64,000 bases of DNA, taken from the NCBI GenBank assembly GCA_902601705.1, contig CACKNV010000001.1:248001-312000 (forward strand), read 5' to 3'. Position numbers and translations under genes: made by a program. The stretch's first letter is position 1; each line of letters opens with the position of its first letter. The stretch comes from an uncultured Pelagibacteraceae bacterium (GTDB lineage Bacteria > Pseudomonadota > Alphaproteobacteria > Pelagibacterales > Pelagibacteraceae). Shown in pieces: positions 2,181 to 39,327 of this stretch. Below the pieces are notes generated by a model. The model ran no database searches, was not told where the DNA came from, and saw only the letters and a program-made list of their open reading frames with translations.

Positions 2181-2235
2181 TGGTGGGCAAGAAGAGACTC
2201 GAACTCTTAAGCCTTGCGGCACTGGTTTCTAAGAC
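2181..2235 (-). pseudogene. 3' half of host tRNA-Leu(UAG), disrupted by prophage integration (attL)
   Basis: Minus strand GTCTTAGAAACCAGTGCCGCAAGGCTTAAGAGTTCGAGTCTCTTCTTGCCCACCA: anticodon loop, 3' anticodon stem, variable arm, T arm, 3' acceptor strand and CCA, with no 5' half adjacent. Acceptor strand CTTGCCC pairs with GGGCAAG at 39321-39327. Confidence 0.93.
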
Positions 2236-2284
2236 TAACGCACATCTTAAAACCTTGAACTACCAACACTCCTTTCTTCACCCA

Positions 2285-2324
2285 TTGTATCAATGAATAC
2301 AGTTTTGTATCCATCATTGTATCC
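2285..2324. promoter_or_regulatory. Candidate integrase arm-type binding sites, attL side (3 copies of TTGTATC)
   Basis: TTGTATCAA (2285-2293), TTGTATCC (2305-2312), TTGTATCC (2317-2324); the same motif is inverted at attR. Confidence 0.6.
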
Positions 2325-2337
2325 ATTCTTTGACCAA

Positions 2338-2422
2338 TGGTAGGGCGAAAAGGACTCGAACCTTCACCTCTTGCGAGACCAGTTCCTAAGACTGGCGCGT
2401 CTACCAGTTCCGCCATCGCCCC
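2338..2422 (-). tRNA. Prophage-encoded complete tRNA-Leu(UAG)
   Basis: Minus strand GGGGCGATGGCGGAACTGGTAGACGCGCCAGTCTTAGGAACTGGTCTCGCAAGAGGTGAAGGTTCGAGTCCTTTTCGCCCTACCA; acceptor GGGGCGA/TCGCCCT, anticodon stem CCAGT/ACTGG with loop CTTAGGA (anticodon TAG), long variable arm, encoded CCA. Confidence 0.95.
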
Positions 2423-2457
2423 AACAATTGATACGGAAGTTATAGACATCATTTTCT

Positions 2458-3735
2458 CTATTTCAACACCTTTCTACTATTGTGACCAATTAAAGAAGAT
2501 ACTTCAGCTTTTTTACCTTTAACTTTTTTGTATTCCTCTAATTTAGTTATAGCATTTTCAAGCACCTCATTTGTACTATGCGTGTAGTACTGAAGTGTTG
2601 TCTCAATAGACTTATGTCCTGCTAAATGCTGAACTGCTTTTGGACTTACATCAGCTTCTACTAACCTAGTAATAAAAGTGTGTCTTGTTGAGTAAGGCGT
2701 ATACTCATCGTTTAGACCTGATAACTTAATATACTTATCCCAGTTATGTCTTAGAGAAGATTTAGATACAGGAAAGAAACGGTTGTCTTTATTCTTTAAA
2801 GCAACTTCACGTCTTCTTTTCACTACTTCTAATGCTCTATTTGTTAATGGAACAGTAGACCATTTACCAGTTTTAGGTCTAAAGAATGTCATATTCTTTT
2901 TACCATAGTCTATCTCATCTGGTGTAATCCGATTAAGTTCTCCATCGTGACGTACCCCAGTATCAATCGCAAATACTATCACATCATACCAATAGCCATC
3001 TTCACGTTGCTTACAGGTATTTAGCAATTGTTGTTCTTCTGCAATTGACAGTGCAGGTTTAGGTTTACTTTCTGCACGTCTCTCATCTTGTATCCCAAAG
3101 TTTTTAGCACTTGGGTCAATACAATCATCAAGACTAAAAAGTCTTTGTTTGATTGCGAAGGACGTTAATTGTCTTAACAAACCTAAACGCTTGTTCACGG
3201 TATTAGTGCTACAAGAGTTATAATTATTCATTCTCTTTTTTGCTGAATGAACAATCGCCCACTTCTTGAAGTCAGCTAAAGTAAATACATCGTGAAAGTC
3301 TTTAAGTTTAGGTTTAAGAATTTCCCTATCCTTAAAGAAATCTAATATATCTTTAGCATAGTTAGCAACAGTTTCACCGTGCTTACCTTTCCAAGTATCC
3401 AATCTAACTAAGTCCTGATAAAGGTCATTAATATATGCTTCACCTTTAACAGAAGTATTTTCAGTAAGAAGGAAACTTCTACTTGCTAGACGGTCTCTCA
3501 TTTGAGACTTCACCTTGATTGCTTTACCAAGTGCTTCCTCAAACTTCTCCAATTGTCTAGCTTCAGACATCGTATTATCAATGTCTATCCTGACAGTGGA
3601 AGTCATACGCTTCGACTTCTTAACACCGTCTACGTGGTACTCTTTATACTTGGAGACCCATAAAGAGTTGTCACGCCTTAAAGTTATACCTTTCGGTAAT
3701 GCTTCAAGGATTTTTGCTTTTACTGCTTGTCTCAT
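2458..3735 (-). CDS. int: Phage tyrosine recombinase integrase
   Basis: C-terminal catalytic motifs DTGVRHDGEL...YSTRHTFITRL...LAGHKSIETTLQYYTH. The ORF track start is 3798, but the ATG at 3735 overlaps the upstream TGA (ATGA), which favours the shorter form. Confidence 0.95.
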   Translation of the reverse strand: MRQAVKAKILEALPKGITLRRDNSLWVSKYKEYHVDGVKKSKRMTSTVRIDIDNTMSEARQLEKFEEALGKAIKVKSQMRDRLASRSFLLTENTSVKGEAYINDLYQDLVRLDTWKGKHGETVANYAKDILDFFKDREILKPKLKDFHDVFTLADFKKWAIVHSAKKRMNNYNSCSTNTVNKRLGLLRQLTSFAIKQRLFSLDDCIDPSAKNFGIQDERRAESKPKPALSIAEEQQLLNTCKQREDGYWYDVIVFAIDTGVRHDGELNRITPDEIDYGKKNMTFFRPKTGKWSTVPLTNRALEVVKRRREVALKNKDNRFFPVSKSSLRHNWDKYIKLSGLNDEYTPYSTRHTFITRLVEADVSPKAVQHLAGHKSIETTLQYYTHSTNEVLENAITKLEEYKKVKGKKAEVSSLIGHNSRKVLK

Positions 3736-4160
3736 ATTTTTATACTCCTTGCAGTTTTTAGTTGGTTCTCTATCTTCAACTTCGGCACATCTTTCCAATC
3801 TGACGTAGTTCCGATAAAGAGTTTTTGAAGTCTTCTTCCTGTTGGTGTTAATTTAATCCAACTTAATCTTCTATTCTCGAATGGATTTACAACTCTTTCA
3901 ACGAAACCTAGAGTATGTAAATCACTTACATTTCGAGATATTGAAGACAAGGAAATCACAACTCCAAAAAACTTGTGATACCATTCTCTTATAACCTGAG
4001 TGTTTAATTCTTGACCATCAGGTAAACAAGAGAGTGTCTTAAATGTTAAGACCAATTGTAATGGAATACCATTACCAAAAGTCTTCGCCTTAGACTTTGC
4101 TACTTCTTGCATAAACACTTTATCAAAGTGAATATTACTTGTTGTGCAACTGTAAGACAT
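3732..4160 (-). CDS. Winged-helix (MarR-like) DNA-binding protein, candidate phage regulator
   Basis: SLSSISRNVSDLHTLGFVERVVNPFENRRLSWIKLTPTGRRL matches the MarR wHTH and wing pattern; stop codon overlaps the integrase start. Confidence 0.65.
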   Translation of the reverse strand: MSYSCTTSNIHFDKVFMQEVAKSKAKTFGNGIPLQLVLTFKTLSCLPDGQELNTQVIREWYHKFFGVVISLSSISRNVSDLHTLGFVERVVNPFENRRLSWIKLTPTGRRLQKLFIGTTSDWKDVPKLKIENQLKTARSIKI

Positions 4161-4605
4161 TATTCTCCTTTCGATTTAACTTTATAACCTTCAACTTATC
4201 AGGACGGTTATGAGAGAGTTTTGTCTGCGCTATCACATTTTCAATCGTAGACTTATATGGGTCGTAATGTTCAAACAATGGAATTACTTCACTGTCTTCT
4301 ATTAGACCTTGTCGTCTTAGTTTATTGAAAGTGTATTGGATAACTGCGTCACCTATTTTAATTGATGAAGTCCTTTCATACTCATCATCAACTTCTACTG
4401 TTTTGCAGTAGTAAGGTAGGTCACCAACTGCTTTAGCATAAACTAAAGGATTGGGATATTGAGATTGTAAGTCTGAAATATAATAATCAAAATCATCTAT
4501 ATCTCTCCATAACTTACATCTTACGACCTTCCACACTTTGCAGACTACGCTACTTACATTCATAACGCACCTAGTCGAAAGTTTTACTTTTTTATTTATA
4601 ACCAT
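4135..4605 (-). CDS. Hypothetical phage protein (156 aa)
   Basis: ORF with an AGGAG-type site upstream (TATAGGAGTTAAGT). Confidence 0.6.
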   Translation of the reverse strand: MVINKKVKLSTRCVMNVSSVVCKVWKVVRCKLWRDIDDFDYYISDLQSQYPNPLVYAKAVGDLPYYCKTVEVDDEYERTSSIKIGDAVIQYTFNKLRRQGLIEDSEVIPLFEHYDPYKSTIENVIAQTKLSHNRPDKLKVIKLNRKENNVLQLHNK

Positions 4606-4640
4606 ACTTAACTCCTATATTAAGTTATTCGTTTGCTTTT

Positions 4641-4665
4641 CACAAGTGCAAACTTTCAACTTGTG
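4641..4665. promoter_or_regulatory. Operator-like inverted repeat CACAAGTGCAAACTTTCAACTTGTG
   Basis: CACAAGT/ACTTGTG perfect 7-bp arms, upstream of the 4605->2458 leftward operon. Confidence 0.45.
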
Positions 4666-4760
4666 GATTAATTGCAATTTAGACTCAATATAAACTGCGT
4701 AAAAATAGATAAAAATTAATCTCGGTTTCCTATCTATTGTTCGTCACAACCCAAAAGCGA

Positions 4761-4931
4761 TTACTCTAAATCGTCTTCAGGTGTTTGATACAAGACTACC
4801 TTGTGTTCTATCTTAGGTCTCTTGCTCAACTCACTTACAGTTTGAGATAATGCTTTCGCTAACTTATCCTTACCTTGTGTGTCGAGCATATGACCGAACT
4901 CAGGTAGTTCTTTGACTACTTGTATAATCAT
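4761..4931 (-). CDS. Small hypothetical phage protein (56 aa)
   Basis: Translated by hand: MIIQVVKELPEFGHMLDTQGKDKLAKALSQTVSELSKRPKIEHKVVLYQTPEDDLE; below the length cut-off of the ORF track. Confidence 0.5.
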   Translation of the reverse strand: MIIQVVKELPEFGHMLDTQGKDKLAKALSQTVSELSKRPKIEHKVVLYQTPEDDLE

Positions 4932-4939
4932 TCCTATCC

Positions 4940-5188
4940 TTAGTTGAGGTGCTTACTAGCACTCTCTTTCGCTTCAGCTTTTATTTCATCAAATTCTTTT
5001 TGACTTACAAAAGCAACACCTCTCGTATGAGCCGTCTCGTGCAGGTGGTTTATAGCGATAGCAAGTATAGGTAATGGTTTAAGAAGATTTTTCTTATCAG
5101 GAGAAATCTCCATACTTATATCGAACATACGTTGCCATATGCTCTCAGGAATTTTTAAAGTTTCCGTCTTTTCTTTTTGTGCTTTCAT
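4940..5188 (-). CDS. Hypothetical phage protein (82 aa)
   Basis: ORF in the early/accessory region; no recognised domain. Confidence 0.55.
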   Translation of the reverse strand: MKAQKEKTETLKIPESIWQRMFDISMEISPDKKNLLKPLPILAIAINHLHETAHTRGVAFVSQKEFDEIKAEAKESASKHLN

Positions 5189-5441
5189 TGCACTCCTATC
5201 CTAATAATCTTTCTGGTTAAGGAATAGTTCCAACGAATAGAAAGAAGTAAAGGTTCGTACTTGAATATTTAAAAACAAGTCTTATCTGTCATTGCAACAA
5301 AATAAGCGGAACTCATTCCTGCGTTTTATCTAATCACAAAAATAATATTATTCAATTGGTGCAACCCATAATTTAATCCGAACTGAAATCGGATTGTCAC
5401 TTTTTATCCGAACTGACTTCGGATTTTGTTCTACGTGAAAC

Positions 5442-6524
5442 TTAAATCAAACCTTTAGAATTAGTTTGAGATAAAAATTCTAAGTAAGTTTCAAACTCAC
5501 CATCTGAAATTTCTTTTTTCTTTGTTGCTCTTGCAGTAAATATTTTAATCCACTTCTTAAATTCTTCGTGAAACCTTTTATAGTTCTTCCAGTCGTAGTT
5601 ATATTGTTTACTCCATTGCTTTCTTGCATTGGAATTGAAGAACATTGTCATTGTGAGTTTCATTGGCTTCTTGTCCTCGACTGCTTTGAGCCATAAGTTT
5701 ACAAGTGTTTCACCTGCGATTCCTGCCATTATATTATTATTAGTCTTATAATGCTTGGCTCTCTTGGCTATATAATCTATCACACTTTCCAGTAGTTCTT
5801 GATGAAGCATACCAACGCTTTCTGCTATAGCTACTGCGTCCTGATAAGATATAGTAAAGTAATCTTCATATAGCTTACCTTGCTTTTTCATCTGAGCCAT
5901 CTTTATTACCATATCAACTGGGTCTTTAATCTTGTGTCTATCGCAGAAACTATTCAGTCCGTGATTAGCTACTGATATATCTTCACCTTGTAAATGCGCT
6001 TTTAATCTATTTATTTGTTGCTTTACTTTAGTCTTATTTGGTGTCGGAGAAAGCAAACCCATTGGATATAATTCATCACTTACTTTACCCATCTGTATCA
6101 TCTGACCTGACAGATTAAATGGATTACCTGCTTGTCTTACCTGTTCTCCAAGTTTCTGGTATGCCTGTTCTATTTCATACATTGCTCTTGGTTTGATTGC
6201 GTTCTTTAATTTATCCAGTGCGTCTTGTTGTTTCTTTAACCACGCCTTGTATATCTTGTTTGACTTCTTGTAATTGATAACTCTTTGTTCATTTTCTGCA
6301 GACAATAGTTTACCTTCAAAGTAAAACATCTTGTCTCTCTTTTGAGTGGTAGCAATCCAGTGTGTCTCTTTGAGTGACAATGGTTTCGTATGATACTCTA
6401 GCTTTACACTGCTATCTATTTTAACTGTAGGTCTACCAAGAAATATATCTAGTCTTCTCTCTAAATCCTTTTGTCTATCTTCAGTCTTCTGCTTTGTTGT
6501 TTTCTTTTTTAATAACTTAACCAT
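5442..6524 (-). CDS. Hypothetical phage protein (360 aa)
   Basis: Long basic ORF; no domain recognised by eye. Confidence 0.7.
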   Translation of the reverse strand: MVKLLKKKTTKQKTEDRQKDLERRLDIFLGRPTVKIDSSVKLEYHTKPLSLKETHWIATTQKRDKMFYFEGKLLSAENEQRVINYKKSNKIYKAWLKKQQDALDKLKNAIKPRAMYEIEQAYQKLGEQVRQAGNPFNLSGQMIQMGKVSDELYPMGLLSPTPNKTKVKQQINRLKAHLQGEDISVANHGLNSFCDRHKIKDPVDMVIKMAQMKKQGKLYEDYFTISYQDAVAIAESVGMLHQELLESVIDYIAKRAKHYKTNNNIMAGIAGETLVNLWLKAVEDKKPMKLTMTMFFNSNARKQWSKQYNYDWKNYKRFHEEFKKWIKIFTARATKKKEISDGEFETYLEFLSQTNSKGLI

Positions 6525-6711
6525 ACTGAACTGTAAGTATCATAAAGTTCTTCAAGTTTCAAAACAGATAATGAGAGAGATAATTCGAAATAATTTTTTG
6601 AAAGAAAAAATCTACAAAAAAGTCCATCGGTAGTCTAGAAGACTAACGCAAATCAAAACTATCACTCGGTTTCCTGCAGAAAAATTGTATGTTGGATACA
6701 ATACAGGGTAG

Positions 6712-6748
6712 TACCCCCATTTATTTTTGCTATAGGGTCGAGGGGGTA
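6712..6748. repeat. Inverted repeat TACCCCC...GGGGGTA enclosing a T7-core-like CTATAGGG
   Basis: tacccccatttatttttgctatagggtcgagggggta; GC-rich arms in an otherwise AT-rich intergenic region. Confidence 0.5.
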
Positions 6749-6778
6749 AAAAAAATTTTGTGTATATACGTGAACTTG

Positions 6779-7042
6779 TCAGATTTTTTCGTCAAAACTT
6801 TTTAAGTCAAAGAACTTATCAAACATTGAGTACTCTACGGCATAACCTAAAAAGTCATTAGCGTACTTCAGGATAAACTCTCTAGCCATTTTAGATTTAA
6901 CTTCTGGTGAAACTTTGAGTTTCTTTCTTGGAAATTCTGCTTGTACTACAAATTCTTTTATTATTTTCTCTACATTCTTTTTACTTTTATTCTTTGAAAA
7001 AAGAGCTTTAAGATAGATTACCTTTGGTTCTTTGTGGTTCAT
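6779..7042 (-). CDS. Hypothetical phage protein (87 aa)
   Basis: ORF downstream of the terminase region. Confidence 0.55.
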   Translation of the reverse strand: MNHKEPKVIYLKALFSKNKSKKNVEKIIKEFVVQAEFPRKKLKVSPEVKSKMAREFILKYANDFLGYAVEYSMFDKFFDLKSFDEKI

Positions 7043-7168
7043 AACTTTATTTACTATAAGATATACTCATAGTTAGATGTTGTTGGTTGCACTTATATAA
7101 GGATAAAGATTAACTATAGTTTAACTATAGTAGTATCCTAATAGTGGCACTTAATTAAAAAATCAAAA

Positions 7169-7405
7169 TCAAACAACTTTAAGAGCATTTCTAACCATAG
7201 AAGCTATTTTCTTACTATACTTTGCTCTAGTTCTGTTTTTTCTTTTCTTTGCAGTCGTCCTTGCGTACTCTTTAGAGGACAATCGGTTTATTACGCTTTC
7301 TGGTAAATATCTTTCACCAGTGACACTAGATTTCTTTCCTGATTTAGTTCTCCATTTTTGAGCCGACCAGTTCTTCAAATCTTTTTGAGATTGTTTAAGT
7401 GACAT
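7169..7405 (-). CDS. DUF5872-like small basic phage protein
   Basis: SQKDLKNWSAQKWRTKSGKKSSVTGERYLPESVINRLSSKEYARTTAKKR pattern. Confidence 0.65.
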   Translation of the reverse strand: MSLKQSQKDLKNWSAQKWRTKSGKKSSVTGERYLPESVINRLSSKEYARTTAKKRKNRTRAKYSKKIASMVRNALKVV

Positions 7406-7578
7406 TAGCTTTTATATCCACCACCTGCTTTTTTATATGCTTTCGCTAGTGCTTGTGCTTTTCTTGCACTCCATTTACCACTAGCAGTACCATAAGAAGC
7501 ACTATTGAGTATTCTACTGAATATACGCTTTCTCAAAGTAGGTTTGGTATAATTACCTGATTTATTTACTGTACTCAT
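7405..7578 (-). CDS. Small conserved-type phage protein (57 aa)
   Basis: Hand translation MSTVNKSGNYTKPTLRKRIFSRILNSASYGTASGKWSARKAQALAKAYKKAGGGYKS; TAATG coupling with the next gene; ends in a GGGYKS-type tail common in marine phages. Confidence 0.65.
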   Translation of the reverse strand: MSTVNKSGNYTKPTLRKRIFSRILNSASYGTASGKWSARKAQALAKAYKKAGGGYKS

Positions 7579-9245
7579 ATTATTTTAATCCAACTGTTTT
7601 CTGTTTTATTGTCTCCAAAATATTTCTCTATTTCAGCATTAAGTAAGTCTTCTTTTCTTTGTTTATATGAAAGTTCTTGGTCTTTAGCTAAATGCTGAAC
7701 CCAATGATGACAAGCAACCTGAAGACAATCAATTCTGTCATCGTGTGGCAATGAATGTATTTCTTTTTGTAATCTACTTATTTGGTAGAAAAGCTGATAC
7801 TTCAATGCGCTTTCCTGAGGATACAACATATTAGTACCTTCATAGTCTTTTTTGATTACTGTTTTATCTACAATAATTCTATGCTGAGATATTAGAGGTT
7901 CTAATGTATCTAATATCCTTCTATGTTTATTAGAAGTCTGTCTAACCATTTCTGTAGTACAAGGATATTCTTTAATTAAATAAGGTTTTAATAACGCCTC
8001 GAACATACCTTGACCAAAGTTTTCTTCTATTAAAATCTTATTGACTTTATTTTTCTTAGCTACTTCTACTAATTTAGATAATGTATGTTCTGAATAACCA
8101 CTATTGAAACCACCAATATCTACTAAATAAATATTACCATTTAAGAATTTAGTGACACAATAAGCCGTTTCGTCAGAACCTTTACCTGAAGGGTCAATTG
8201 CCATTACTGTAGATATATAAGGCAACCACTGACCTTGTACTTCCATAGGTCTATAATAAGCGTCTCCTTGTAGTCCTACGTTGGGTAAATCGTTATGTTG
8301 TAATTCAGGAGAACTAGCCCAAATAACTTTTTCTGGTGCGTTCTCAGGATTTAAATTCATAACTGATAAATCTGATAGTTTTAGTGGAAACTTGTTTAGG
8401 TCACTTAACGTAGTATCTAGCTGATACTGCATATTAAAACCTAGTCTTCCATAACTAGCTTCTCTTTCTAATAAATCTTTTTCGTCAAATCTTGATGGGT
8501 CTGTAGGTTTACCAATTAATTCTATATTCCAAGTATTATTAATTATAGGCGCAAGATTAGAACCATATGACTTTATTTGTTTCTCACTAGGGTATCTAGC
8601 AGTCCAATAACGTATTTTATAACCTCTCTCTTGCAACTTGTTATAAATACTTTGTTCTGTTTGTGGTGTACCTAAGTATATAATTCTAGAAGTGTCAGGT
8701 TTAATTACTGCTTCAAATTCTTTAATAGCTTCAGATAACTTGTCTCTCATAAACTGAGTTTGAGTATTTCCTGAAGTTTCAACATCATCAGCAACAACTA
8801 AGTCTGCACGTGAACCTGTAATCTGAGAAGTAATACCTAATGACTTCACTGTTGGTTGTTGTGAAGCAGAAGCCGTATTTACATCAAAACTAATCTTTGA
8901 CTGTCTTTGGTCGTCTTTAGGATATAAATGTTGAAGCAATGGCATTTCGTGAAGTAATCTCAAACAGAAAGTACTAAAGTCATCTGCTCTATTCTTTGAA
9001 GCAGATACAACAAGTATATTAATGTTTGGATTAAGTAAGATACGCCATAAAACATAACTTGCAGTTATCCAACTCTTTCCTACACCTCTAAAAGCACTAA
9101 TAATTATTCTACTGTCTCCATTAGCAATATAGTCAGCTATATCGTATTGAACTTTAGTAGGTTGAGGTAAATTTAAATGCTTCCAAGTGATGTATAGAAA
9201 ATTCCTAAAGTCAGTTATTTTTGACAGGATTTTTTCGTTTTTCAT
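7575..9245 (-). CDS. terL: Terminase large subunit (T7 gp19-like)
   Basis: Walker A-like SAFRGVGKSW, VVADDVE Walker B, C-terminal nuclease AIDPSGKGSDETAY; 556 aa. Confidence 0.95.
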   Translation of the reverse strand: MKNEKILSKITDFRNFLYITWKHLNLPQPTKVQYDIADYIANGDSRIIISAFRGVGKSWITASYVLWRILLNPNINILVVSASKNRADDFSTFCLRLLHEMPLLQHLYPKDDQRQSKISFDVNTASASQQPTVKSLGITSQITGSRADLVVADDVETSGNTQTQFMRDKLSEAIKEFEAVIKPDTSRIIYLGTPQTEQSIYNKLQERGYKIRYWTARYPSEKQIKSYGSNLAPIINNTWNIELIGKPTDPSRFDEKDLLEREASYGRLGFNMQYQLDTTLSDLNKFPLKLSDLSVMNLNPENAPEKVIWASSPELQHNDLPNVGLQGDAYYRPMEVQGQWLPYISTVMAIDPSGKGSDETAYCVTKFLNGNIYLVDIGGFNSGYSEHTLSKLVEVAKKNKVNKILIEENFGQGMFEALLKPYLIKEYPCTTEMVRQTSNKHRRILDTLEPLISQHRIIVDKTVIKKDYEGTNMLYPQESALKYQLFYQISRLQKEIHSLPHDDRIDCLQVACHHWVQHLAKDQELSYKQRKEDLLNAEIEKYFGDNKTENSWIKII

Positions 9246-9432
9246 CGAATGGTAGTTCTTCTAATAGTTTTCCTAGTGGGTTATCTTCTGTTGGAACTGC
9301 GTCTATTCCATTGTCTCTTAAAAACTGTCTAGCAACATTTAAATCTGCAGATTTTGCTTCTGGGTCTTTTACTCTTTTTAATAGTTCTTCTGCTAGAACT
9401 CCGTGTAATTCTTTTAATTTACTATCACTCAT
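9211..9432 (-). CDS. Terminase small subunit (T7 gp18-like)
   Basis: 73-aa protein immediately upstream of and overlapping terL; EELLKRVKDPEAKSADLNVARQFLRDNGI. Confidence 0.7.
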   Translation of the reverse strand: MSDSKLKELHGVLAEELLKRVKDPEAKSADLNVARQFLRDNGIDAVPTEDNPLGKLLEELPFDEKRKNPVKNN

Positions 9433-9629
9433 TGATTTCTCTCTATTTTAATAATTTTCATATCTTCTGATAATTCTGCCTTTACTTTTGAACATATATA
9501 AAGAGCATTACTATTACGTGAAGCTACACGCTTTTTCTCAATACATTTTGAGACTGAAGGCATATATACAAATTCAGTAAGTTTTTGTTCTACACCTACA
9601 AACATTAGTAAAGCCATAACTTCAACCAT
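9429..9629 (-). CDS. Hypothetical phage protein (66 aa)
   Basis: Overlapping start/stop with neighbours. Confidence 0.5.
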   Translation of the reverse strand: MVEVMALLMFVGVEQKLTEFVYMPSVSKCIEKKRVASRNSNALYICSKVKAELSEDMKIIKIERNQ

Positions 9630-9979
9630 TAGTGTCCACTCCCATTTCTAATTAATTTTTCTACATCTTTTTGTAGTTTTTCTATTTTCTTGTTTGCTTC
9701 ATTAAGCATAACTTGTGTGTGGACATTGTCGTCTAATTGAATTTGATGTTTCTCTAATAACTTTGCGTTCATTTCAATTAACATCAGCATTTCTAAATTT
9801 TTGGGTGTCTGTTCAGCTTTCTTTAATAAGTCAGCTTCCATCAATTGCTTTGAAGTTTCTAAAGTATTTAATCTTTCAACAATTCCAAAATAAGCCCACA
9901 AGCCAGAACAAATTACAAAAATTAAAGCGACTAAGTTCCTAATAGGTAAACTGAGGTTAGTCTCAGAATTTATTTTCAT
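9629..9979 (-). CDS. Single-TM coiled-coil protein, possible lysis accessory (Rz/i-spanin-like)
   Basis: One N-terminal TM segment (NLVALIFVICSGLWAYFGI) followed by a charged heptad-rich helix. Confidence 0.5.
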   Translation of the reverse strand: MKINSETNLSLPIRNLVALIFVICSGLWAYFGIVERLNTLETSKQLMEADLLKKAEQTPKNLEMLMLIEMNAKLLEKHQIQLDDNVHTQVMLNEANKKIEKLQKDVEKLIRNGSGH

Positions 9980-10209
9980 ATTTTTGTACCGACTTCTCTA
10001 CATTCAAACTTAACTACAATTTTATTTTGATTTATGTAGTTAGTATCCCATTCTTCTAATTCAGATAAATTTTTAAAAGTTTTTTGTGCAACACCATAAC
10101 CTGCATTGATACAGTCATAGTGTGAATTGAATTGCCAACCAGAAACTGAACTAGATGGACATTGTCCAGTGGCTACACTGCACATATACAGGATTAGTAG
10201 ATATTTCAC
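9976..10209 (-). CDS. Small secreted Cys-containing phage protein
   Basis: Signal-like N-terminus MKYLLILYMCSVATGQC; 77 aa; ATGA overlap with 9629..9979. Confidence 0.5.
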   Translation of the reverse strand: MKYLLILYMCSVATGQCPSSSVSGWQFNSHYDCINAGYGVAQKTFKNLSELEEWDTNYINQNKIVVKFECREVGTKI

Positions 10210-10449
10210 TTATTTAAAATTTAAGAAACCAACAATAGAAGCTACGAGAGTTCCTATAAATACTAGAACTGCTACTGCACCTTTACCTTTGGAAACGTCT
10301 TGTCTTAGAGATTTAACTTCTCTCTTTAATTCATTAATACTATCATTCAAAGTTTTCATTCTTTCAGCACATAATTTTTCGTGTGCAGAAAGTCTTACTC
10401 CTGTTGCTTGTTCAACAAACTCTTTAGCAGTAATCTTTTTTCTAGGCAT
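10210..10449 (-). CDS. C-terminal TM protein, hemolysin XhlA/holin-like
   Basis: Amphipathic helix plus C-terminal TM (GAVAVLVFIGTLVASIVGFLNF). Confidence 0.45.
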   Translation of the reverse strand: MPRKKITAKEFVEQATGVRLSAHEKLCAERMKTLNDSINELKREVKSLRQDVSKGKGAVAVLVFIGTLVASIVGFLNFK

Positions 10450-10450
10450 A

Positions 10451-10942
10451 TTAAAAGTAATTAATGTTTAAAGTTATACGAACATTTTGGTCAGTAGTTG
10501 TTGTACTGTGATGTTCATTAAATGAATTAAAATGTAAAATACGATTTGCAACAGACTCAACTTTTTTATCTTGGTCTTTTAGATAAGTATAACCGTCACA
10601 AGTATTTAAATATAATAATGCTGACTTTATTTGAAAGTCTTGGTCTTTATGTAAGTTATGTTTGAATATTTTAGGTGTTCTTGGATATAAATTTAATTTT
10701 ATATTTCTAATTGCTCTTACATTTAATTTTTCCAATATAGGAACAAACATATTGTATTTGTCACTTTGTATTACAAAATGGTTATAAAGTTGGTGACAAA
10801 AATAATAATTATCTAAAGTTTGTTTTTCATCTTTAAAAGCAACTGTACTTTGAAAATACCATTGTAATTGATTTCCAAATACTAAATCCTGTAAAGATTT
10901 AAAATATTCTTTATCTAAATAATTATCTTCTATTTTTACCAT
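10451..10942 (-). CDS. 2OG-Fe(II) oxygenase-like protein
   Basis: HKDQDFQIKSALLYLNTCDGYTYL...NRILHFNSFNEHHSTTTTDQNVRITLNINYF: HxD...H...R pattern and double-stranded beta-helix order. Confidence 0.7.
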   Translation of the reverse strand: MVKIEDNYLDKEYFKSLQDLVFGNQLQWYFQSTVAFKDEKQTLDNYYFCHQLYNHFVIQSDKYNMFVPILEKLNVRAIRNIKLNLYPRTPKIFKHNLHKDQDFQIKSALLYLNTCDGYTYLKDQDKKVESVANRILHFNSFNEHHSTTTTDQNVRITLNINYF

Positions 10943-11770: not shown

Positions 11771-11774
11771 AAGA

Positions 11775-12095: not shown

Positions 12096-12114
12096 ATTTT
12101 ATTTTCTCCTATAA

Positions 12115-13683: not shown

Positions 13684-13707
13684 AATATATTTTCTCCTTA
13701 ATTAAAT

Positions 13708-14889: not shown

Positions 14890-14898
14890 ATATTATTC

Positions 14899-26165: not shown

Positions 26166-26166
26166 A

Positions 26167-27644: not shown

Positions 27645-27647
27645 TTA

Positions 27648-30998: not shown

Positions 30999-31374
30999 AT
31001 TGTAGTAATGCTTCCTTTGGAACACAGTGACCTTTACTTTCCCAGTTATCGCCACCTGATTTAATTGGAAATTTCTTCATTAATTTTTTTAGAATTTTTG
31101 TTGGAATCAGAACCCAAACTTGGTCTTTACGTTCCTCTTTCCATAAACAAAAAGCAAAATAGATTGCTTTAGTGTTCATTATTCCTGAAGGTTTTCCGTT
31201 GTCTTCTATTTCAACAAAGACATTTCCAGTCTTTTGACAGACCCTATCTGTCTTAACTTCTACTAATTTATTATTAAATATTTCTTGAAGTTCGTTTTCT
31301 TTCTCTTGTCCGAATTTTAAATCCAAGTCAAAATGAGGTCTTGCTTTAGTGTGTATCACTCCAATTCTGTCCAA
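30988..31374 (-). CDS. Putative PD-(D/E)XK-like endonuclease
   Basis: LDLKFGQEKENELQEIFNNKLVEVKTDRVCQKTGNVFVEIE, nuclease-like D/E...ExK arrangement. Confidence 0.65.
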   Translation of the reverse strand: MDRIGVIHTKARPHFDLDLKFGQEKENELQEIFNNKLVEVKTDRVCQKTGNVFVEIEDNGKPSGIMNTKAIYFAFCLWKEERKDQVWVLIPTKILKKLMKKFPIKSGGDNWESKGHCVPKEALLQYEI

Positions 31375-33109
31375 CTTTAATTTCTCCGTCTAATGGACAT
31401 CTAAAGTTAAAATGCTCTTGTGTTTTTTTGAATATTGATTTTGTGATAGTTTTGAAGTCTTCTAGTTTATCTTTATGTACTTCAAACTGTATTTCATCGT
31501 GTATATGCAAGACCTGCGCATAGTCTTTACCCCACACAAATCCTGCTTTTTCTAGTTCTTGATTTAATAATATAGTTCCTTGTTTTACTAATAAGCTACC
31601 TGCAGACTGTATTAATGTATTTAAAGAACTATGTTCTGCTCTACACATTAATTTTCTTTTATCTAAACCATTAACAAAACCAGTTCTTCTATATTTAGAA
31701 ACGACTGCGTCTTTTAAAGTTTTTAGTGCAGGTAATTTTTTCTCAAAAGTATCTCTTATTCTTTTGGCTTCGTCATAAGAGACGTTAAGTATCTCACCGA
31801 GTTTTTTATTTCCCCCACCATAAATGTAAGCATATATAAAAGTTTTAGCTTTAGAACGTGAGGATAATCCGAGAGATTTTTGATTTTGGGAATGTATATC
31901 ATCTTCAAGCAATTGTTTTTGAAAATATCCATTGTCGTATACACCCAAGTAATGAGAAAGCACACGCAACTCCAGACCACTAAAATCGACACCACACATA
32001 ACCATATCGGTAGAAGCAGTAAATAAGGAACGAAGTTCTTTACCATATGGTAAATCGCTTGAACAAACTTGTGCAAGGTTTGGTGAGTGGTGAGTACACC
32101 TGCCAGTGACTGCCCCATTCGTAATAACTTGTCCATAAATTTTTCCTTTTTTAATTTGTTTTAAATATGCTTGGTCACCTTCTGAAAGTTGTCCAAGTCT
32201 TTTCTGTATCATCAAATATTCTGCAATAAGTTTTGCTTCAGGATAATTTAATGATTTTAATATTTTTTCACTTACTTCAGGTTTGCCACCTGCAGTAAAG
32301 TCTTTTGGTTTCCACCCTAAAGTTTTTAATCTAGAAGCAATATGGTCTCTAGAGTTAGGATTGAACGTGATAGTTTTTGTAATTTTAACTGGCACTCCTG
32401 CCCTGATACCTCTTTTCTTATTATCTCTTTTATAAGTTTTATAACCTTGTACTTCTTCCCAAGACGGAAATACTAGAGCCAACTGGTCAGCTAACTCTAG
32501 TCTCCGTTTTGTTAGGATAGATAAAAGGTTCTCAGCAGAACTCTCATCAAAACACACACCGAACATTTCTTGTTGCCTAATCCAGTGTGCGAATTGATGT
32601 TCTAAGAGGATAGCTTCTTTAGAATAGTTTGTTTTAATTATAAGGTCGTATAATTTGTGAGTGACTTCTACGTCTCTTTCACAATAGTCTTGCATTTCAA
32701 GAGACCAAACATCAAATGTTGAATGTTCTTGATAATCACCTTTACGTAATCCCAATCGGTAGCCCCAACTTTCAAGTGAGTGTCTACCGATTAGTTTTGG
32801 TGGTAGGTTTTTAACTTTAAAATCTAATTCTTGTCTATTTGTCCAAATTAATCTTGAACATAAAAGAGTATCTAAAATTTCTCCTGAATATTTAAATCCA
32901 AATATTTTATCTAATGCAGGTAGGTCGAAGCCCTGTATATTATGACCTATTAATAAAGTAGCTTTCTTTAGCAACTCTAGACCGTCATTTAAATTGTCAG
33001 GATTATATGAATATACCTTATTGGTTTCTATATCCTTGCAGACAATGCAGTGAATGACATCTAATTTGTCTAGAAACCCATTAGTTTCTAGGTCAATTAT
33101 TAGCTTCAT
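31346..33109 (-). CDS. DNA polymerase, family A (T7 gp5-like) with 3'-5' exonuclease domain
   Basis: LIIDLETNG exo I; CGVDFSGLELRVLSHYLG; KTFIYAYIYGGG; HIHDEIQFEV. Confidence 0.97.
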   Translation of the reverse strand: MKLIIDLETNGFLDKLDVIHCIVCKDIETNKVYSYNPDNLNDGLELLKKATLLIGHNIQGFDLPALDKIFGFKYSGEILDTLLCSRLIWTNRQELDFKVKNLPPKLIGRHSLESWGYRLGLRKGDYQEHSTFDVWSLEMQDYCERDVEVTHKLYDLIIKTNYSKEAILLEHQFAHWIRQQEMFGVCFDESSAENLLSILTKRRLELADQLALVFPSWEEVQGYKTYKRDNKKRGIRAGVPVKITKTITFNPNSRDHIASRLKTLGWKPKDFTAGGKPEVSEKILKSLNYPEAKLIAEYLMIQKRLGQLSEGDQAYLKQIKKGKIYGQVITNGAVTGRCTHHSPNLAQVCSSDLPYGKELRSLFTASTDMVMCGVDFSGLELRVLSHYLGVYDNGYFQKQLLEDDIHSQNQKSLGLSSRSKAKTFIYAYIYGGGNKKLGEILNVSYDEAKRIRDTFEKKLPALKTLKDAVVSKYRRTGFVNGLDKRKLMCRAEHSSLNTLIQSAGSLLVKQGTILLNQELEKAGFVWGKDYAQVLHIHDEIQFEVHKDKLEDFKTITKSIFKKTQEHFNFRCPLDGEIKVGQNWSDTH

Positions 33110-33394
33110 TTAATGTATTAAGTGGACTGTAATTTTTTCTGTACTTGGTAGTATTTCTCCAACACCTTCAATTGCTTTTTTAATTATTGCTCTTGCTTCA
33201 GCGTCACCACACATAATTACTGGGTGGACATTGTCGTATTTAATAGCGTTATAAATAGCCATCATAATTGTACGACAAGTTTGGAAAATTAATTGTTGTT
33301 GTTCAGTATCTAACTCTACGTAATCAGGTTTATCTACTAAATAACTTAAAATAAATTTAGTTAAAGTTGCTTCATTCATCGAAGTTTCCTTCAA
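33110..33394 (-). CDS. Hypothetical phage protein
   Basis: 94 aa ORF between primase/helicase and polymerase. Confidence 0.6.
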   Translation of the reverse strand: MKETSMNEATLTKFILSYLVDKPDYVELDTEQQQLIFQTCRTIMMAIYNAIKYDNVHPVIMCGDAEARAIIKKAIEGVGEILPSTEKITVHLIH

Positions 33395-34982
33395 CCAAAC
33401 GACCTGTATCTTTGTTCCAAATTAAATCACAAGCAACACCAGTGTCACCTGTAAATCTATTTTTTAAAACTCTAACAGTCATTATATTGTTTTCTGTTTC
33501 CGATTGTTGGTCTCTTTCAAAACCAATCACTGCGTCTGATAATTGAGCAAGTGAATGAGAACCCCTGAGGTGTGAAAGAGACGTTTGAATACCTTCTTCG
33601 TGTCCTGTTTTACTGTCCACTCTTTTCAAGTGTGAAACAACAAACATTCCACAATTAACTTCTTCAACTAACTTTCTAAGGTTAGTCATTAAGTTATCAA
33701 TATTACGTCTCTCATCACCCTCAGAAATTCCTGATATAACAATGGAGATATGGTCTAAGAAAATGTATTTACAGTTAAGACCTTGAACCATAAATCTAAT
33801 TCTATTTAATAGGTCATCACTGTCTGAACTTCCAAAATGGTCATAAAAGCATACCTTGTCTTTTATTTTTTCCCACGCTGAAATTAAATCTTTATCTGAA
33901 ATCTTTTTTCTAACTTCTGGTATATGTATTGGTTGGTTTACTGCAAGAGAGACTAAACCTCTTACACTTCTCTTTACGCTTTCTTCTAAAGCAATATATC
34001 CAACTTTATTTCCTTTATTAATTAAATCAAAAGCAAGTTCTCTACAAACTTGTGACTTACCAGTTCCTGAACCTGCACATAGTAAAACTAATTCTTTAGG
34101 TCTGATACCTGATAGTTTTTTGTTTAGTCCATCAAATACATATGGAACACTTTCAACATAATCATCTTTTAATAATAAATCTTTTGTATCATTACCTTCA
34201 ATAATACCTTGTGGTGTGTAATGTTTAGCTTCAAAGATTGCGTCTATAATTTTATTACCTTTACCTTTTTGTAATAATTCACTTGCGTCTTTACCTTGAA
34301 GTTTAGCAATGAAACATTTTTTTACTGGTAAAATATTTGCACATTCAACACTAGCTTTCATTCCTGCTTCATCAGTGTCAAACATTAGGATTATCTTTTC
34401 AAATTTAGATAACCATTCTAATTCTTGTTTAATATATTTTTTAGCTGACGCAGTTCCTGAAGGTATAGAACAAACAGGATATTTATTAGAATTTACTTTT
34501 GATACACTAAGGCAATCTAATTCTCCTTCTGTTAAAACTATTGTTCTTCCACCATCACGCCAGTTTTGCTGACCGAATAAAGTAATTTTATCAGTATCAC
34601 CAAGCCACTTAAAAGTTTTATCTTGAAATCGTAGCTTTTGCGCTACCTTGTTATAATGCTTGTCATAGTAATTAGCGATTTGAACTGGTCTTCCTTCATA
34701 TTCGCCTTGCTGATAATCAAATACTTTGCAAGTTTCCTCGTCTATATTTCGTTTATCTAATCTATTGTAATTTCCATTTATCATATCAGTATTAATCTTT
34801 GTTTGAATTTGTTCTGGTAGAACACCAGTTGTTTTTTGATAATCGTGGCAACCGAAACAATAAGTATGGTTCTCGTAGACTCCGAGATTGTCTCGGCTAC
34901 CACAATTTTCACAAGGTGCGTGATGAAGAAACTTTTCTTCAGGATTGGTCTTCAAGTTCCATCTCCTGTAAATCAGCTTCAT
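33372..34982 (-). CDS. DNA primase/helicase (T7 gp4-like)
   Basis: Zn finger CENCGSRDN...CFGCHDY; TOPRIM EGELDCLS; Walker A CAGSGTGKSQ; DnaB-like SHLKR. Confidence 0.96.
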   Translation of the reverse strand: MKLIYRRWNLKTNPEEKFLHHAPCENCGSRDNLGVYENHTYCFGCHDYQKTTGVLPEQIQTKINTDMINGNYNRLDKRNIDEETCKVFDYQQGEYEGRPVQIANYYDKHYNKVAQKLRFQDKTFKWLGDTDKITLFGQQNWRDGGRTIVLTEGELDCLSVSKVNSNKYPVCSIPSGTASAKKYIKQELEWLSKFEKIILMFDTDEAGMKASVECANILPVKKCFIAKLQGKDASELLQKGKGNKIIDAIFEAKHYTPQGIIEGNDTKDLLLKDDYVESVPYVFDGLNKKLSGIRPKELVLLCAGSGTGKSQVCRELAFDLINKGNKVGYIALEESVKRSVRGLVSLAVNQPIHIPEVRKKISDKDLISAWEKIKDKVCFYDHFGSSDSDDLLNRIRFMVQGLNCKYIFLDHISIVISGISEGDERRNIDNLMTNLRKLVEEVNCGMFVVSHLKRVDSKTGHEEGIQTSLSHLRGSHSLAQLSDAVIGFERDQQSETENNIMTVRVLKNRFTGDTGVACDLIWNKDTGRLVEGNFDE

Positions 34983-35439
34983 CAGTCAAGCCATCTTGGA
35001 ACTTATAACCCTTTACGTCTTCGTTAAGTAAATATTCTCTTACGTTAAAGTTTGGACAAGTCTTTGCTTCGTCCAACATATAATGACCGACTATTTGTGC
35101 GTCTGGGTATTTTATTAATAATTCTTCTAAAGTTTTCTTTAATGCTTCCCATTGTTCGGCAGTAAAATTATCTTCTGGTTCTTTCCAGTTTTCTTCTTTT
35201 GCACCACCTGCTAAAGCTAATCCGTATGAGCAATGATTATATCCCTTAACGTGGGCTTGTATTTCATCATCACCTCTACCTTGTTCAACTTCACCATTTC
35301 TTCTGATTACTTTTCCATAACCAATTTTTAGCCAACCTCTTTCTCTATGCCATCTGTCTATATCTTTTGCACCTATATCCTGACTTGGTCTAGTTTGAGT
35401 ACAATGGATAACTATGTATTTAGTTTCTGGTCTTGCCAT
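34939..35439 (-). CDS. N-acetylmuramoyl-L-alanine amidase (T7 lysozyme gp3.5-like)
   Basis: YIVIHCTQTRPSQDIGAKDIDRWHRERGW...HCSYGLALAGG...GHYMLDEAKTCPNF. Confidence 0.93.
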   Translation of the reverse strand: MARPETKYIVIHCTQTRPSQDIGAKDIDRWHRERGWLKIGYGKVIRRNGEVEQGRGDDEIQAHVKGYNHCSYGLALAGGAKEENWKEPEDNFTAEQWEALKKTLEELLIKYPDAQIVGHYMLDEAKTCPNFNVREYLLNEDVKGYKFQDGLTDEADLQEMELEDQS

Positions 35440-35440
35440 T

Positions 35441-35950
35441 TTATTTTCCTTTAATTTCTATTAACCAATCTTGTGGAAAGGTTTGTTTTGTTGATTGAAT
35501 ACAGTGATAGCGAAATCCAAATAATTCACACCACTTGCCATAAGTAGTTTTAGACTTCTTACCTATTTTAGTTTTTGAGTTCGAAAAAATAAATCGAATA
35601 TCTAATTCTGGGTTCTGCGATTTAATAGTCTTCATCTTTTTTCTATCTGCAGAATTGAAAGCACCTTTAGTTTCTATAATGAAAAAATTCTTTATTGGGA
35701 AATCAGGTGTATATGTTTTCTTAATTTCAGGTTGGAAGTAAGTAATCTTCATTCCTTCGTAAGTAAAATTAATCTTTTGCTTAGTTAGGTAATTAAAAAC
35801 TTCTTCTTCCAAACCTGATTTTAGGACAACACCACTAGAAGTCTTTACTCTCTTGAACTTCTGACGTTTCATTTGAGATAACTTCTGGTTTGGGTGTTGC
35901 TTCATAGCCATCTTCTTTTTCAAAAAGGTTGCTATCTTTTCCCTCAACAA
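35441..35950 (-). CDS. Endonuclease I (T7 gp3-like Holliday-junction resolvase)
   Basis: SGLEEEVFNYLTKQKINFTYEGMKITYF...YTPDFPIKNFFIIETKGAFNSADRKKM; true start may be a downstream ATG. Confidence 0.9.
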   Translation of the reverse strand: MLREKIATFLKKKMAMKQHPNQKLSQMKRQKFKRVKTSSGVVLKSGLEEEVFNYLTKQKINFTYEGMKITYFQPEIKKTYTPDFPIKNFFIIETKGAFNSADRKKMKTIKSQNPELDIRFIFSNSKTKIGKKSKTTYGKWCELFGFRYHCIQSTKQTFPQDWLIEIKGK

Positions 35951-36422
35951 GTTCGATAACTTGTACTGCTTTTAATCTAGCAGTAATACCTGCGCCTAAC
36001 ATTGGCGTAAAGTAAGATACTAAATTGTAAGCGACACGCATTTTAGAACCACCCCATATTATCGTAGATAATGGAATAGGATTTTTCTTTGCGTCAAACA
36101 ATTGGGGTTTTTGTGAAAACTTTTCTTTAGTCTTCTGGTTTACCCCAGTTGCTTTCATTTTGAATTTGAAGAAAACGTAATCGCCTTCTTCTGTATAAGG
36201 TTTCGGTGCTTTTTTAATCCCTTTACCTTTATGGTTTTGTTCAGCTAATTTAAGACTGTCATCTAAAGCTGAAGTATATAACTTCAACATTTCAGTTGCG
36301 TCTGATTTAGCGACCTTCAAGGTCACCTTATATTCACCTGCTTCGTTAAAACGAACATCAGGTTTATTTAGGTGAGGATAAATAGCTTCTCCGACAACAC
36401 TTATGTTTGTTGTTGGTTGCAT
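35835..36422 (-). CDS. ssDNA-binding protein (T7 gp2.5-like)
   Basis: AIYPHLNKPDVRFNEAGEYKVTLKV...; acidic C-terminus SEVQESKDF. Confidence 0.85.
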   Translation of the reverse strand: MQPTTNISVVGEAIYPHLNKPDVRFNEAGEYKVTLKVAKSDATEMLKLYTSALDDSLKLAEQNHKGKGIKKAPKPYTEEGDYVFFKFKMKATGVNQKTKEKFSQKPQLFDAKKNPIPLSTIIWGGSKMRVAYNLVSYFTPMLGAGITARLKAVQVIELVEGKDSNLFEKEDGYEATPKPEVISNETSEVQESKDF

Positions 36423-36473
36423 ATTATACTCCTATAATTTGGCTTCGTTTATGTAGCCATAAGTGGAACTTTA

Positions 36474-36489
36474 TTTGCACAAGTGCAAA
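36474..36489. promoter_or_regulatory. Perfect palindromic operator-like site TTTGCACAAGTGCAAA
   Basis: 7-bp inverted arms TTTGCAC/GTGCAAA around AA, in the RNAP-SSB intergenic gap. Confidence 0.5.
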
Positions 36490-36492
36490 GGT

Positions 36493-38223
36493 CTAGACGC
36501 AAAAAAAGACACTTTGCTTTACTAAAGACAAATCCAAGTTTCCTCTTTGAGGAATGTTAGGAAATTTCTTCATATTCTTAATAGAAAGCATTTGTCTCAT
36601 TTCCATCGCCCAGTTAGCAAGAACATCATTTTCATATATTTCACAAAATGCTTCTCTTATAGCTTCTGACAACATATCTACATCAGGTGCTACACAACCA
36701 AAAGAGTCGTGAATTAAACTAAAGTTAGTCACTCCTTTTTGTTTTGCTTTTACAACTGCTAAATGAAGAACACTTGCGTCAAGAGAATGTATAAAGTTAG
36801 GACAAATAGATTGAGCAGTTTTTCTTTTATCAATTACATCAGTATCAGATTGTATAGATAATTTTATTATACTGTCTCCCATTTTAGTCTTAACTCTTTT
36901 ACTTTCTTTTTTATAACACATCATTTGTACTGGGAATCCTAGAGGTGTTGTCCAAGTGACTGGTAAGTTTTCTGAAGCAACTAAACGAGATACTTTTTTT
37001 AAAAAATCCATTATCTCTTTTGCACCAACTATTACATCGTTAATACTTGACCAAACAATTGGTTGAAGAAAGTTGGTAGCTTTGAATAAATCATTACCGA
37101 AGTTATGTTGTACTCCACGTTCTTTTAATTCCTTCTCAACGTGGTCTTGCAGATATTGCCTACAGGAATATTGAGTTAAAGAATATGGTAAACACATTAC
37201 AGGTTTCTTACATAGCTTTCTGTCTACACCATAATCTAACCACTTCTTAGCTAGTGGGTCAGGATTTACTTCTAATTTTTCTATCACTTTTTCAGATACA
37301 GTTCTGTAAACATCTTCAGGTTTATTTGATGGAATTAGATTAGTAGCTTTACCGCCTATTTCGTCTCTCATCATTGCTGAATAATGTTGTAAACCAGAAT
37401 TACTACAGTCTGATTGTATTGGTAGTGTAGTTATAAAACTAGCGTCAAAATCTGTTTCTGCAAAGTCTTTAAGTTCAAAACACCAAGCAAGAAAACAAAA
37501 AGATTTATCAGCTTGTGACCAATAAGTATCTTCTAGTGGGTTATTTGCACAATTTATAAATCGTTGCATATTATCTTTAACCCAATCTAATCTTGTTTGA
37601 ATGTCTTCTTTATCTACTTCTCCAAATAATCCTGCACCTGCGATTGCAAAACTATCAAAACTACTATTCTCTTTCATTTGTTTTCCATACTTAAATTTAA
37701 GTAATGCTCTAGAATAGTCAGCACCTTGTGGAGATAACATTGCAGGTTTTGGATAACCTCTTGACCTAAAGTCTATTTGATGAGGAAAGAAGAAAGACCT
37801 ATCTTTTAATAAATTAGCTTCTTCAAGAATTTGCCTTACCTGTATATATTTAGATTTTGACTTAGCTTGTTCTTTATAAATATTAGACGCTTCTCTTTTC
37901 CATCTAACTAAACTTTCTTTATTAGTAGCTATATCTATTGGTTTAGGTGGAAGTTCCATACTTTGAGGATTTACTGGTAGCTTTCCCAAAGTCACATCTT
38001 TTTTAATTAATGTTTCTATGACATCTAAAACAGGTTTATTTATAACCCATTCAGTTTCCTGCATAATATTTATGCTATCGTAAAGGTCTTTCATTTCGTG
38101 ACCTCTATTTTTAAGTTCTTCTAAGTATCTTCTGTTTGACGCTTTTACTAAATTATAGTGCATTTTTGACCTCATCTGGTTTGTTTTCGTGATTGTGTTT
38201 TCTTCCGTAATATCCACCGACAA
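36493..38223 (-). CDS. T7-type RNA polymerase, C-terminal catalytic part (split ORF)
   Basis: SDCSNSGLQHYSAMMRDEIGG, KKPVMCLPYSLTQYSCRQ, FIHSLDASVL, LIHDSFGC: T7 RNAP palm/fingers motifs. Confidence 0.93.
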   Translation of the reverse strand: MSVDITEENTITKTNQMRSKMHYNLVKASNRRYLEELKNRGHEMKDLYDSINIMQETEWVINKPVLDVIETLIKKDVTLGKLPVNPQSMELPPKPIDIATNKESLVRWKREASNIYKEQAKSKSKYIQVRQILEEANLLKDRSFFFPHQIDFRSRGYPKPAMLSPQGADYSRALLKFKYGKQMKENSSFDSFAIAGAGLFGEVDKEDIQTRLDWVKDNMQRFINCANNPLEDTYWSQADKSFCFLAWCFELKDFAETDFDASFITTLPIQSDCSNSGLQHYSAMMRDEIGGKATNLIPSNKPEDVYRTVSEKVIEKLEVNPDPLAKKWLDYGVDRKLCKKPVMCLPYSLTQYSCRQYLQDHVEKELKERGVQHNFGNDLFKATNFLQPIVWSSINDVIVGAKEIMDFLKKVSRLVASENLPVTWTTPLGFPVQMMCYKKESKRVKTKMGDSIIKLSIQSDTDVIDKRKTAQSICPNFIHSLDASVLHLAVVKAKQKGVTNFSLIHDSFGCVAPDVDMLSEAIREAFCEIYENDVLANWAMEMRQMLSIKNMKKFPNIPQRGNLDLSLVKQSVFFCV

Positions 38224-39121
38224 AAGGATTATATTCCCATTTTCTAGGTGGCATTAACATTGGAAGGTATTTAGGTTGAAGTGCTTCATTCTTGATATTG
38301 AAGTTCCTAATCTCATCTATGATTTTTCTAGTAGCTTCAACATAAGTGACTGTCTTGAATTTATTTAGCTTTCTATTCTGGTGTCTTACTAAACCCAGTT
38401 TTTCTAGAAAACCAATCATCTTAACTCCAAGATGAAGTCTTCCTTCCTTGCCCCAATCGTCAAACTCCAGTTGGTTTTTATTAATCATATAAGTCCAAAC
38501 TTTATGCTTATATTGATACCTATTTACCTTCTGAGGTATGTTCTTTCCTGCAAGTCTTTTATATATCCTATTATAATTTTCCTTATCTCTATCCTTAAAC
38601 ATCGTTATTCTAGCTTCCATCATCAAGCCAGTTCCTATCTTTATTGCTAGTTTATTCATTGTGGTTTCATTGCTGATACCATCAATTGTATTCTTCAAAA
38701 CTATCAACGAACAGGTATCCCAAACTGTATGTTCTTTAGAAAGAAATACACCTTTATCAAAAGCTGATTTTGGCAGACATTGACACAATAGTTTTAGTGC
38801 AGTCATTCGATTACCTGCACCACCATCTTCCATAGTCTTAATATCGCCATTAATTAATAAGGACAGTTTAGTTATATACTTCTGTTGTAATACTAGACCG
38901 TGAAGTGTTGTGCTTTCTTGACCTTTAGCAATAGCGTCTTTCACGGTCTTTCTGAAACGGTCTATACCACCTTGTAGCATAGCGTCTTCAAATTCTAATT
39001 CTTCTTGAATACGTTTTGTATAATCTGAATTATCTTTAAACTTGCCACCTACGCCTACTTTGACAAGTTCTTGTAATTGTAATTGTAGGTCTTGTTGTTG
39101 TTGATTTAATATATCGGACAT
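38153..39121 (-). CDS. T7-type RNA polymerase, N-terminal part (split ORF)
   Basis: N-terminal domain with LPMLMPPRKWEYNPFVGGYYG (T7 VVPPKPWTGITGGGYW equivalent), then stop; continues in another frame in 36493..38223. Confidence 0.9.
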   Translation of the reverse strand: MSDILNQQQQDLQLQLQELVKVGVGGKFKDNSDYTKRIQEELEFEDAMLQGGIDRFRKTVKDAIAKGQESTTLHGLVLQQKYITKLSLLINGDIKTMEDGGAGNRMTALKLLCQCLPKSAFDKGVFLSKEHTVWDTCSLIVLKNTIDGISNETTMNKLAIKIGTGLMMEARITMFKDRDKENYNRIYKRLAGKNIPQKVNRYQYKHKVWTYMINKNQLEFDDWGKEGRLHLGVKMIGFLEKLGLVRHQNRKLNKFKTVTYVEATRKIIDEIRNFNIKNEALQPKYLPMLMPPRKWEYNPFVGGYYGRKHNHENKPDEVKNAL

Positions 39122-39147
39122 TTAGTGAACATTTCTCCATTTATTTA

Positions 39148-39267
39148 TTGCAGAAGTGCAGGATACAGTAGTTTTGATACAATTTGATACAAGACTATCG
39201 CACAAGTGCAAAGATTGATTTTTTAAAAAAACACAAGCAACACAATAGTAATTCGTCACTTGTGCAA
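39148..39267. promoter_or_regulatory. RNAP upstream region: three GCACAAGTGC-type operator-like sites and three GATACA arm-type sites
   Basis: Operator-like: TTGCAGAAGTGCA (39148-39160), GCACAAGTGCAAA (39200-39212), CACTTGTGCAA (39257-39267). Arm-like: GGATACA (39161-39167), TTGATACAA (39174-39182), TTGATACAA (39184-39192). Confidence 0.5.
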
Positions 39268-39288
39268 TGAAGAAGAAGTGTCGGTATC

Positions 39289-39327
39289 TTCTAAGACCAG
39301 CGCGTATACCAATTCCGCCACTTGCCC
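39289..39327 (-). pseudogene. 5' half of host tRNA-Leu(UAG), disrupted by prophage integration (attR)
   Basis: Minus strand GGGCAAGTGGCGGAATTGGTATACGCGCTGGTCTTAGAA: acceptor, D arm, 5' anticodon stem and loop, then phage sequence that cannot complete the stem. Confidence 0.93.

Follow-up and report, generated by a model that had tools for sequence, protein, structure and literature searches.

tRNA-dependent lysogeny was defined in 2024 in the mycobacteriophage Fionnbharth and cluster K4/L phages (Guerrero-Bustamante and Hatfull, PMC10865867), a paper in which pelagiphages go unmentioned. The same arrangement was described in 2019 for the pelagiphages HTVC011P and HTVC025P and for the Fonsibacter prophage uv-Fonsiphage-EPL (Chen et al., PMC6811365, which cites Zhao et al.). 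Here we analyse an integrated phage in a 64,000-nucleotide stretch of DNA (the window) from an uncultured Pelagibacteraceae bacterium. We consider it very probable that the integrated phage is a T7-like pelagiphage whose lysogeny is tRNA-dependent, with a phage tRNA-Leu(UAG) standing in for the host gene that the prophage splits.

The prophage breaks the anticodon loop of the host tRNA-Leu(UAG) gene

The prophage and its host flanks comprise the following features.

803-2173, minus strand: host trigger factor gene tig, 7 nt past the 3′ end of the host tRNA
2181-2226, minus strand: 3′ half of the host tRNA-Leu(UAG) at attL (46-nt piece)
2227-2235, minus strand: core GTCTTAGAA, attL copy
2227-39288: integrated T7-like (Autographiviridae) prophage, 37,062 bp
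2458-3798, minus strand: tyrosine integrase, 446 aa (PF00589, PHROG integrase)
36493-38223, minus strand: T7-like RNA polymerase, C-terminal half (PF00940)
38153-39121, minus strand: T7-like RNA polymerase, N-terminal half of the split gene (PF14700)
39289-39297, minus strand: core GTCTTAGAA, attR copy
39289-39327, minus strand: 5′ half of the host tRNA-Leu(UAG) at attR (39-nt piece, its last 9 nt being the core)
39357-40418, minus strand: host gene for a family 4 glycosyl transferase, on the opposite flank of the site

A preliminary description of this DNA had reported that a prophage separates two tRNA pieces, and we recovered both the 39-nt and the 46-nt piece with the sequence and at the coordinates claimed. 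The joined halves indeed form a perfect 85-nt tRNA-Leu(UAG), with 23 of 23 stem pairs and a call by ARAGORN. The gene is broken in its anticodon loop and the prophage ends share the 9-bp core only, as had been described; the halves, placed about 37 kb apart, are separated by a prophage that measures 37,062 bp. The tRNA is restored at neither junction, again in agreement with that description, since only 18 of 23 stem pairs form at attL and 13 of 23 at attR, and ARAGORN called no tRNA at either junction of the window. Integrases that enter tRNA genes usually act differently (PMC10865867), one junction rebuilding the host tRNA from a long block of identity, and the phage side of attP does have a weak excess of similarity to the 5′ half of the tRNA (10.3 matches of 30, compared to 7.6 at other offsets). 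However, the 9-bp block, the incomplete pairing and the lack of a tRNA call at the junctions refute such rebuilding for the window, and we consider it very improbable. We also rejected the idea that the P side holds a decayed tRNA 5′ half, because the excess is weak and a constraint on the integrase core site is an equally possible source.

The preliminary description had proposed looking beside tig in related genomes for the uninterrupted gene, and it is there. At least 51 relatives in our first sample have an intact 85-nt gene, which is 100% identical to the joined halves in 38 same-genus genomes and 94-96% identical in 13 further relatives. The intact gene adjoins tig in nearly all fetched loci, with a homologue of the gene at 39357 on the other flank where the contig reaches that far. 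Since 38 same-genus genomes have a gene identical to the joined halves, the match of the halves is not due to chance. A perfect tRNA from both halves together might also point to halves that are transcribed apart and joined in trans, as in the split tRNAs of archaea; however, the gene is uninterrupted in the relatives, an intact replacement is present in the prophage, and we know of no bacterial machinery for joining tRNA halves in trans. We therefore regard trans joining as vanishingly improbable.

A phage-borne tRNA-Leu(UAG) most likely replaces the host gene

The replacement lies within the prophage, near the attL core.

2338-2422, minus strand: complete phage-borne tRNA-Leu(UAG), with G37 in place of A37 (ARAGORN, Rfam)
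2439-2466, minus strand: TTGAAA-16-TATAAC, a weak manual match to a promoter whose end lies 16 nt ahead of the phage tRNA

This is the one intact tRNA that ARAGORN and Rfam find in the window, and it was overlooked in the preliminary description. The integrase gene ends 35 nt upstream of this tRNA, and the attL core follows about 100 bp after it. The phage tRNA is only 69% identical to the host tRNA-Leu(UAG), too little for a recent copy of the host gene. The core common to phage and host is only 9 bp, so that the tRNA is restored at neither junction and the phage thus carries a complete tRNA-Leu(UAG). The claim that integration destroys the gene therefore stands in part: the host gene is split, but function is most likely not lost, because the prophage brings its own tRNA with the same anticodon and integration amounts to a replacement. 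Judged from the sequences, the function of the host gene is most likely supplied by the phage tRNA. We infer that the host gene is essential, that the phage tRNA is expressed and aminoacylated, and that the lysogen depends on it.

In the mechanism that we propose, a lambda-like tyrosine integrase would split the host's single tRNA-Leu(UAG) gene by recombining its anticodon loop with the short core of attP, the phage tRNA-Leu(UAG) beside the integrase would decode CUA and CUG in the lysogen, and precise excision would regenerate the host gene.

The tRNA inventory consists of the loci found by searching the genome, which is 94.85% complete, and its leucine tRNAs are UAG (the phage copy only), CAA and GAG. 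No intact copy of the host tRNA-Leu(UAG) gene turned up elsewhere in this 94.85% complete genome, and relatives show a single tRNA-Leu(UAG); strictly, a second UAG tRNA could still lie in the missing part. tRNA-Leu(UAA) was likewise not found in the 94.85% complete genome, but it is present in a same-genus genome, and the copy of the window's genome is thus probably in the missing part of the assembly. Ala, Ile and Thr tRNAs were also not found in this inventory, probably due to assembly incompleteness.

If the split tRNA were dispensable and simply destroyed, its codons would have to be covered by other leucine tRNAs, and the GAG and CAA tRNAs are present. However, the host uses CUA and CUG (61 and 22 of 6846 codons), which, of the tRNAs found, the UAG one alone would read under standard wobble rules, and the phage UAG tRNA is carried by all of the lysogens examined (10/10). 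It is thus highly unlikely that the host does without this tRNA.

Replacement of the host gene is not the only use to which the phage could put its tRNA. CTA use is slightly higher in the phage than in the host (12.1 versus 8.9 per 1000 codons), and the tRNA is also carried by phages isolated through lytic growth, as might be expected if it served mainly for lytic translation and lay beside the integrase incidentally. We consider this very unlikely, because the anticodon invariably matches the disrupted gene and because almost every locus has the tRNA placed between integrase and attP. The phage tRNA may nevertheless have an additional role in lytic growth.

The 24 distinct 85-nt phage tRNAs keep 100% of the 23 stem pairs, with compensatory changes at 16 of the 23, a pattern of substitution which indicates that the phage tRNAs are under strong structural selection. 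The TTGAAA-16-TATAAC match is only suggestive of a promoter for the phage tRNA, and the consensus promoter scan listed none for it. Two other candidates were set aside. A second tRNA-Leu(UAG) in one genome (G071, contig C63) resembled a phage tRNA, but it adjoins tig in another SAR11 lineage; the bin is 7% contaminated. We also set aside the idea that the altered core of the phage tRNA guards against re-integration, since many relatives have the same core in the tRNA and in attP.

The integrase, tRNA and core form a conserved module

The primase-helicase, DNA polymerase and exonuclease of the prophage are of T7 type, and its large terminase is 77-79% identical to those of HTVC041P, HTVC025P, HTVC011P, Gjalp and Eyrgjafa. 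Its integrase, in contrast to the 33-40% identity found with cultured pelagiphages, is 88-91% identical to those of a lysogen of the same genus (G050) and of a free phage (L072). The order integrase, tRNA-Leu(UAG), core is found in nearly all of the fetched integrase relatives that extend far enough. It occurs in nine further SAR11 lysogens (G050 and L091-L098), each with tig directly past the core, and in the free phage L072, where the attP core is intact. The exception is a set of five near-identical contigs (L142-L145 and L157), which have neither tRNA-Leu nor core downstream of the integrase, this gene lying directly against that of the RNA polymerase; these phages possibly have another att location or have lost lysogeny.

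Within the genus, the integrase occurs in 2 of 121 sampled genomes, one of them the genome of the window. G050 (C6:27759-64496; L060, L061) is a second same-genus lysogen, integrated at this site too and with G37 in its core. At its attL, ARAGORN calls a poor 89-nt tRNA with a mismatched acceptor stem.

Two arrays of repeats flank the core on the phage side.

2286-2323, minus strand: P arm, three direct GATACA repeats (2318-2323, 2306-2311 and 2286-2291), putative arm-type integrase sites
39162-39191, minus strand: P′ arm, three inverted copies, TGTATC (39186-39191, 39176-39181 and 39162-39167), putative arm-type sites

Three copies per arm, direct in P and inverted in P′, compare with 0.22 expected, and this layout is that of lambda-type arm sites, which leads us to treat the repeats as putative integrase sites.

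The map also suggests how integration would alter transcription at the site. Integration would part the host tRNA promoter from tig and probably from clpP, with the phage tRNA taking the equivalent upstream position. The host tRNA promoter would then face the phage RNA polymerase gene, whose N-terminal half lies directly downstream on the same strand. Between the promoter of the host tRNA and the RNA polymerase gene, the P′ arm gave no support for a terminator: the fold z-score is -0.72 and there was no scan match.

The attP core, as deduced from the junctions, corresponds to the anticodon-loop allele of the host

Two main anticodon-loop alleles of tRNA-Leu(UAG) occur in the host clade, G37 and A37, the latter being the one in the 38 genomes whose gene is identical to the joined halves. 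In tRNAs that read CUN codons, methylation to m1G37 normally acts on a G36-G37 pair, which is missing from the A37 allele. The alleles of the host gene were compared between L030-L059 on one side and L063-L065 and L075-L084 on the other. Position 37 is A at both junctions of the window and G at both junctions of G050, and the attP of L072 has G. Since one junction inherits the base of the phage, A at both junctions of the window means that its phage carried A. The attP core of this phage, deduced from the junctions and not from an observed attP, thus appears to match the anticodon-loop allele of its host. This match suggests that integration host range may hang on single-base alleles of the tRNA anticodon loop.

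An open frame through attP is cut by integration

In most free phages, an open frame begins just past the integrase, crosses the tRNA, the two arms and the core, and reaches the point where the RNA polymerase gene starts (L066, L072, L138, L140, L141, L148, L150, L156, L158, L159, L161 and L162). In the prophage this frame is divided.

2207-2452, minus strand: prophage-truncated form (81 aa) of the attP-spanning open frame, ending soon after the core
39122-39288, minus strand: P′ arm and distal part of the attP-spanning frame, with TAA directly before the RNA polymerase ATG at 39121

Among 16 representative attP regions, chosen to be <80% identical to one another, 12 have a frame that stays open throughout the 260-340 nt beyond the tRNA. 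For each of these 12, dinucleotide shuffles match the stop-free length in 0.05-3% of cases. We rejected the frame as a conserved protein, because dN/dS is mostly 0.5-1.2 and there is no excess of third-position change, with the qualification that these dN/dS values are not decisive, since constraint on the arm sites at the DNA level could lower synonymous change. Two database records annotate a hypothetical protein over this stretch. The avoidance of stops together with nearly unconstrained amino acids would fit selection on translation and not on a protein. We suggest, tentatively and with more doubt than belief, that ribosomes on the attP-spanning frame could couple translation of the RNA polymerase to the excised state, in which case integration would help to silence the T7-like lytic programme.

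Comparison with known systems

The features of the window would extend tRNA-dependent lysogeny beyond the Actinobacteria, to a group of T7-like SAR11 phages for which it appears to be the standard strategy. The prophage would become conditionally essential to its streamlined host unless precisely excised, and these phages would have a simple reason for carrying one tRNA gene.

The window has in common with the phages of tRNA-dependent lysogeny (PMC10865867) a tyrosine-family integrase, an attB within a host tRNA gene (single-copy there and, as far as the 94.85% complete genome shows, here), a short core that does not reconstruct the gene (∼10 bp there, 9 bp here), a phage tRNA of the same isotype, here tRNA-Leu(UAG), and arm-type sites around attP, which are putative here. 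In Fionnbharth and the K4/L phages, however, the tRNA is Lys(TTT), the hosts are Actinobacteria and the requirement for the tRNA was shown genetically (PMC10865867), whereas the window concerns Leu(UAG) in SAR11 and a T7-like phage, with evidence from sequence. Unlike in the Fionnbharth-type phages (PMC10865867), the tRNA in the window sits between the integrase and attP.

The window also resembles HTVC019Pvirus group III (HTVC011P and HTVC025P) and uv-Fonsiphage-EPL, for which a tRNA-Leu(TAG) target beside trigger factor and a tRNA-Leu of the phage's own are described, and for group III a split RNA polymerase in all but HTVC011P (PMC6811365). The prophage likewise combines a T7-like genome that has an integrase with a close large terminase, a split RNA polymerase, the tRNA-Leu(TAG) site and its own tRNA-Leu. 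The core is 11 bp in those phages (PMC6811365) but 9 bp in the window, and the prophage departs from the cultured pelagiphages both in its integrase, only 33-40% identical to theirs, and in having A37, which matches this host clade, and not G37 in its core.

In the T7-like cyanophages P-SSP7 and S-TIP37, attP matches the tRNA over ∼39 bp (PMC8776855), whereas the prophage in the window has 9 bp and carries the whole tRNA. The open frame resembles integration-dependent immunity of the mycobacteriophage BPs type (PMC4557955), in which attP also lies inside a frame that integration truncates. In the BPs type this frame encodes a repressor, while the attP-spanning frame here shows neither conservation at the protein level nor similarity to a repressor.

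The arrangement was thus reported in 2019 (PMC6811365) and defined in 2024 (PMC10865867), and the case in the window is not unprecedented. The details added here are the putative lambda-like arm sites, the deduced match between the attP core and the host allele, and the attP-spanning frame that is cut by integration.
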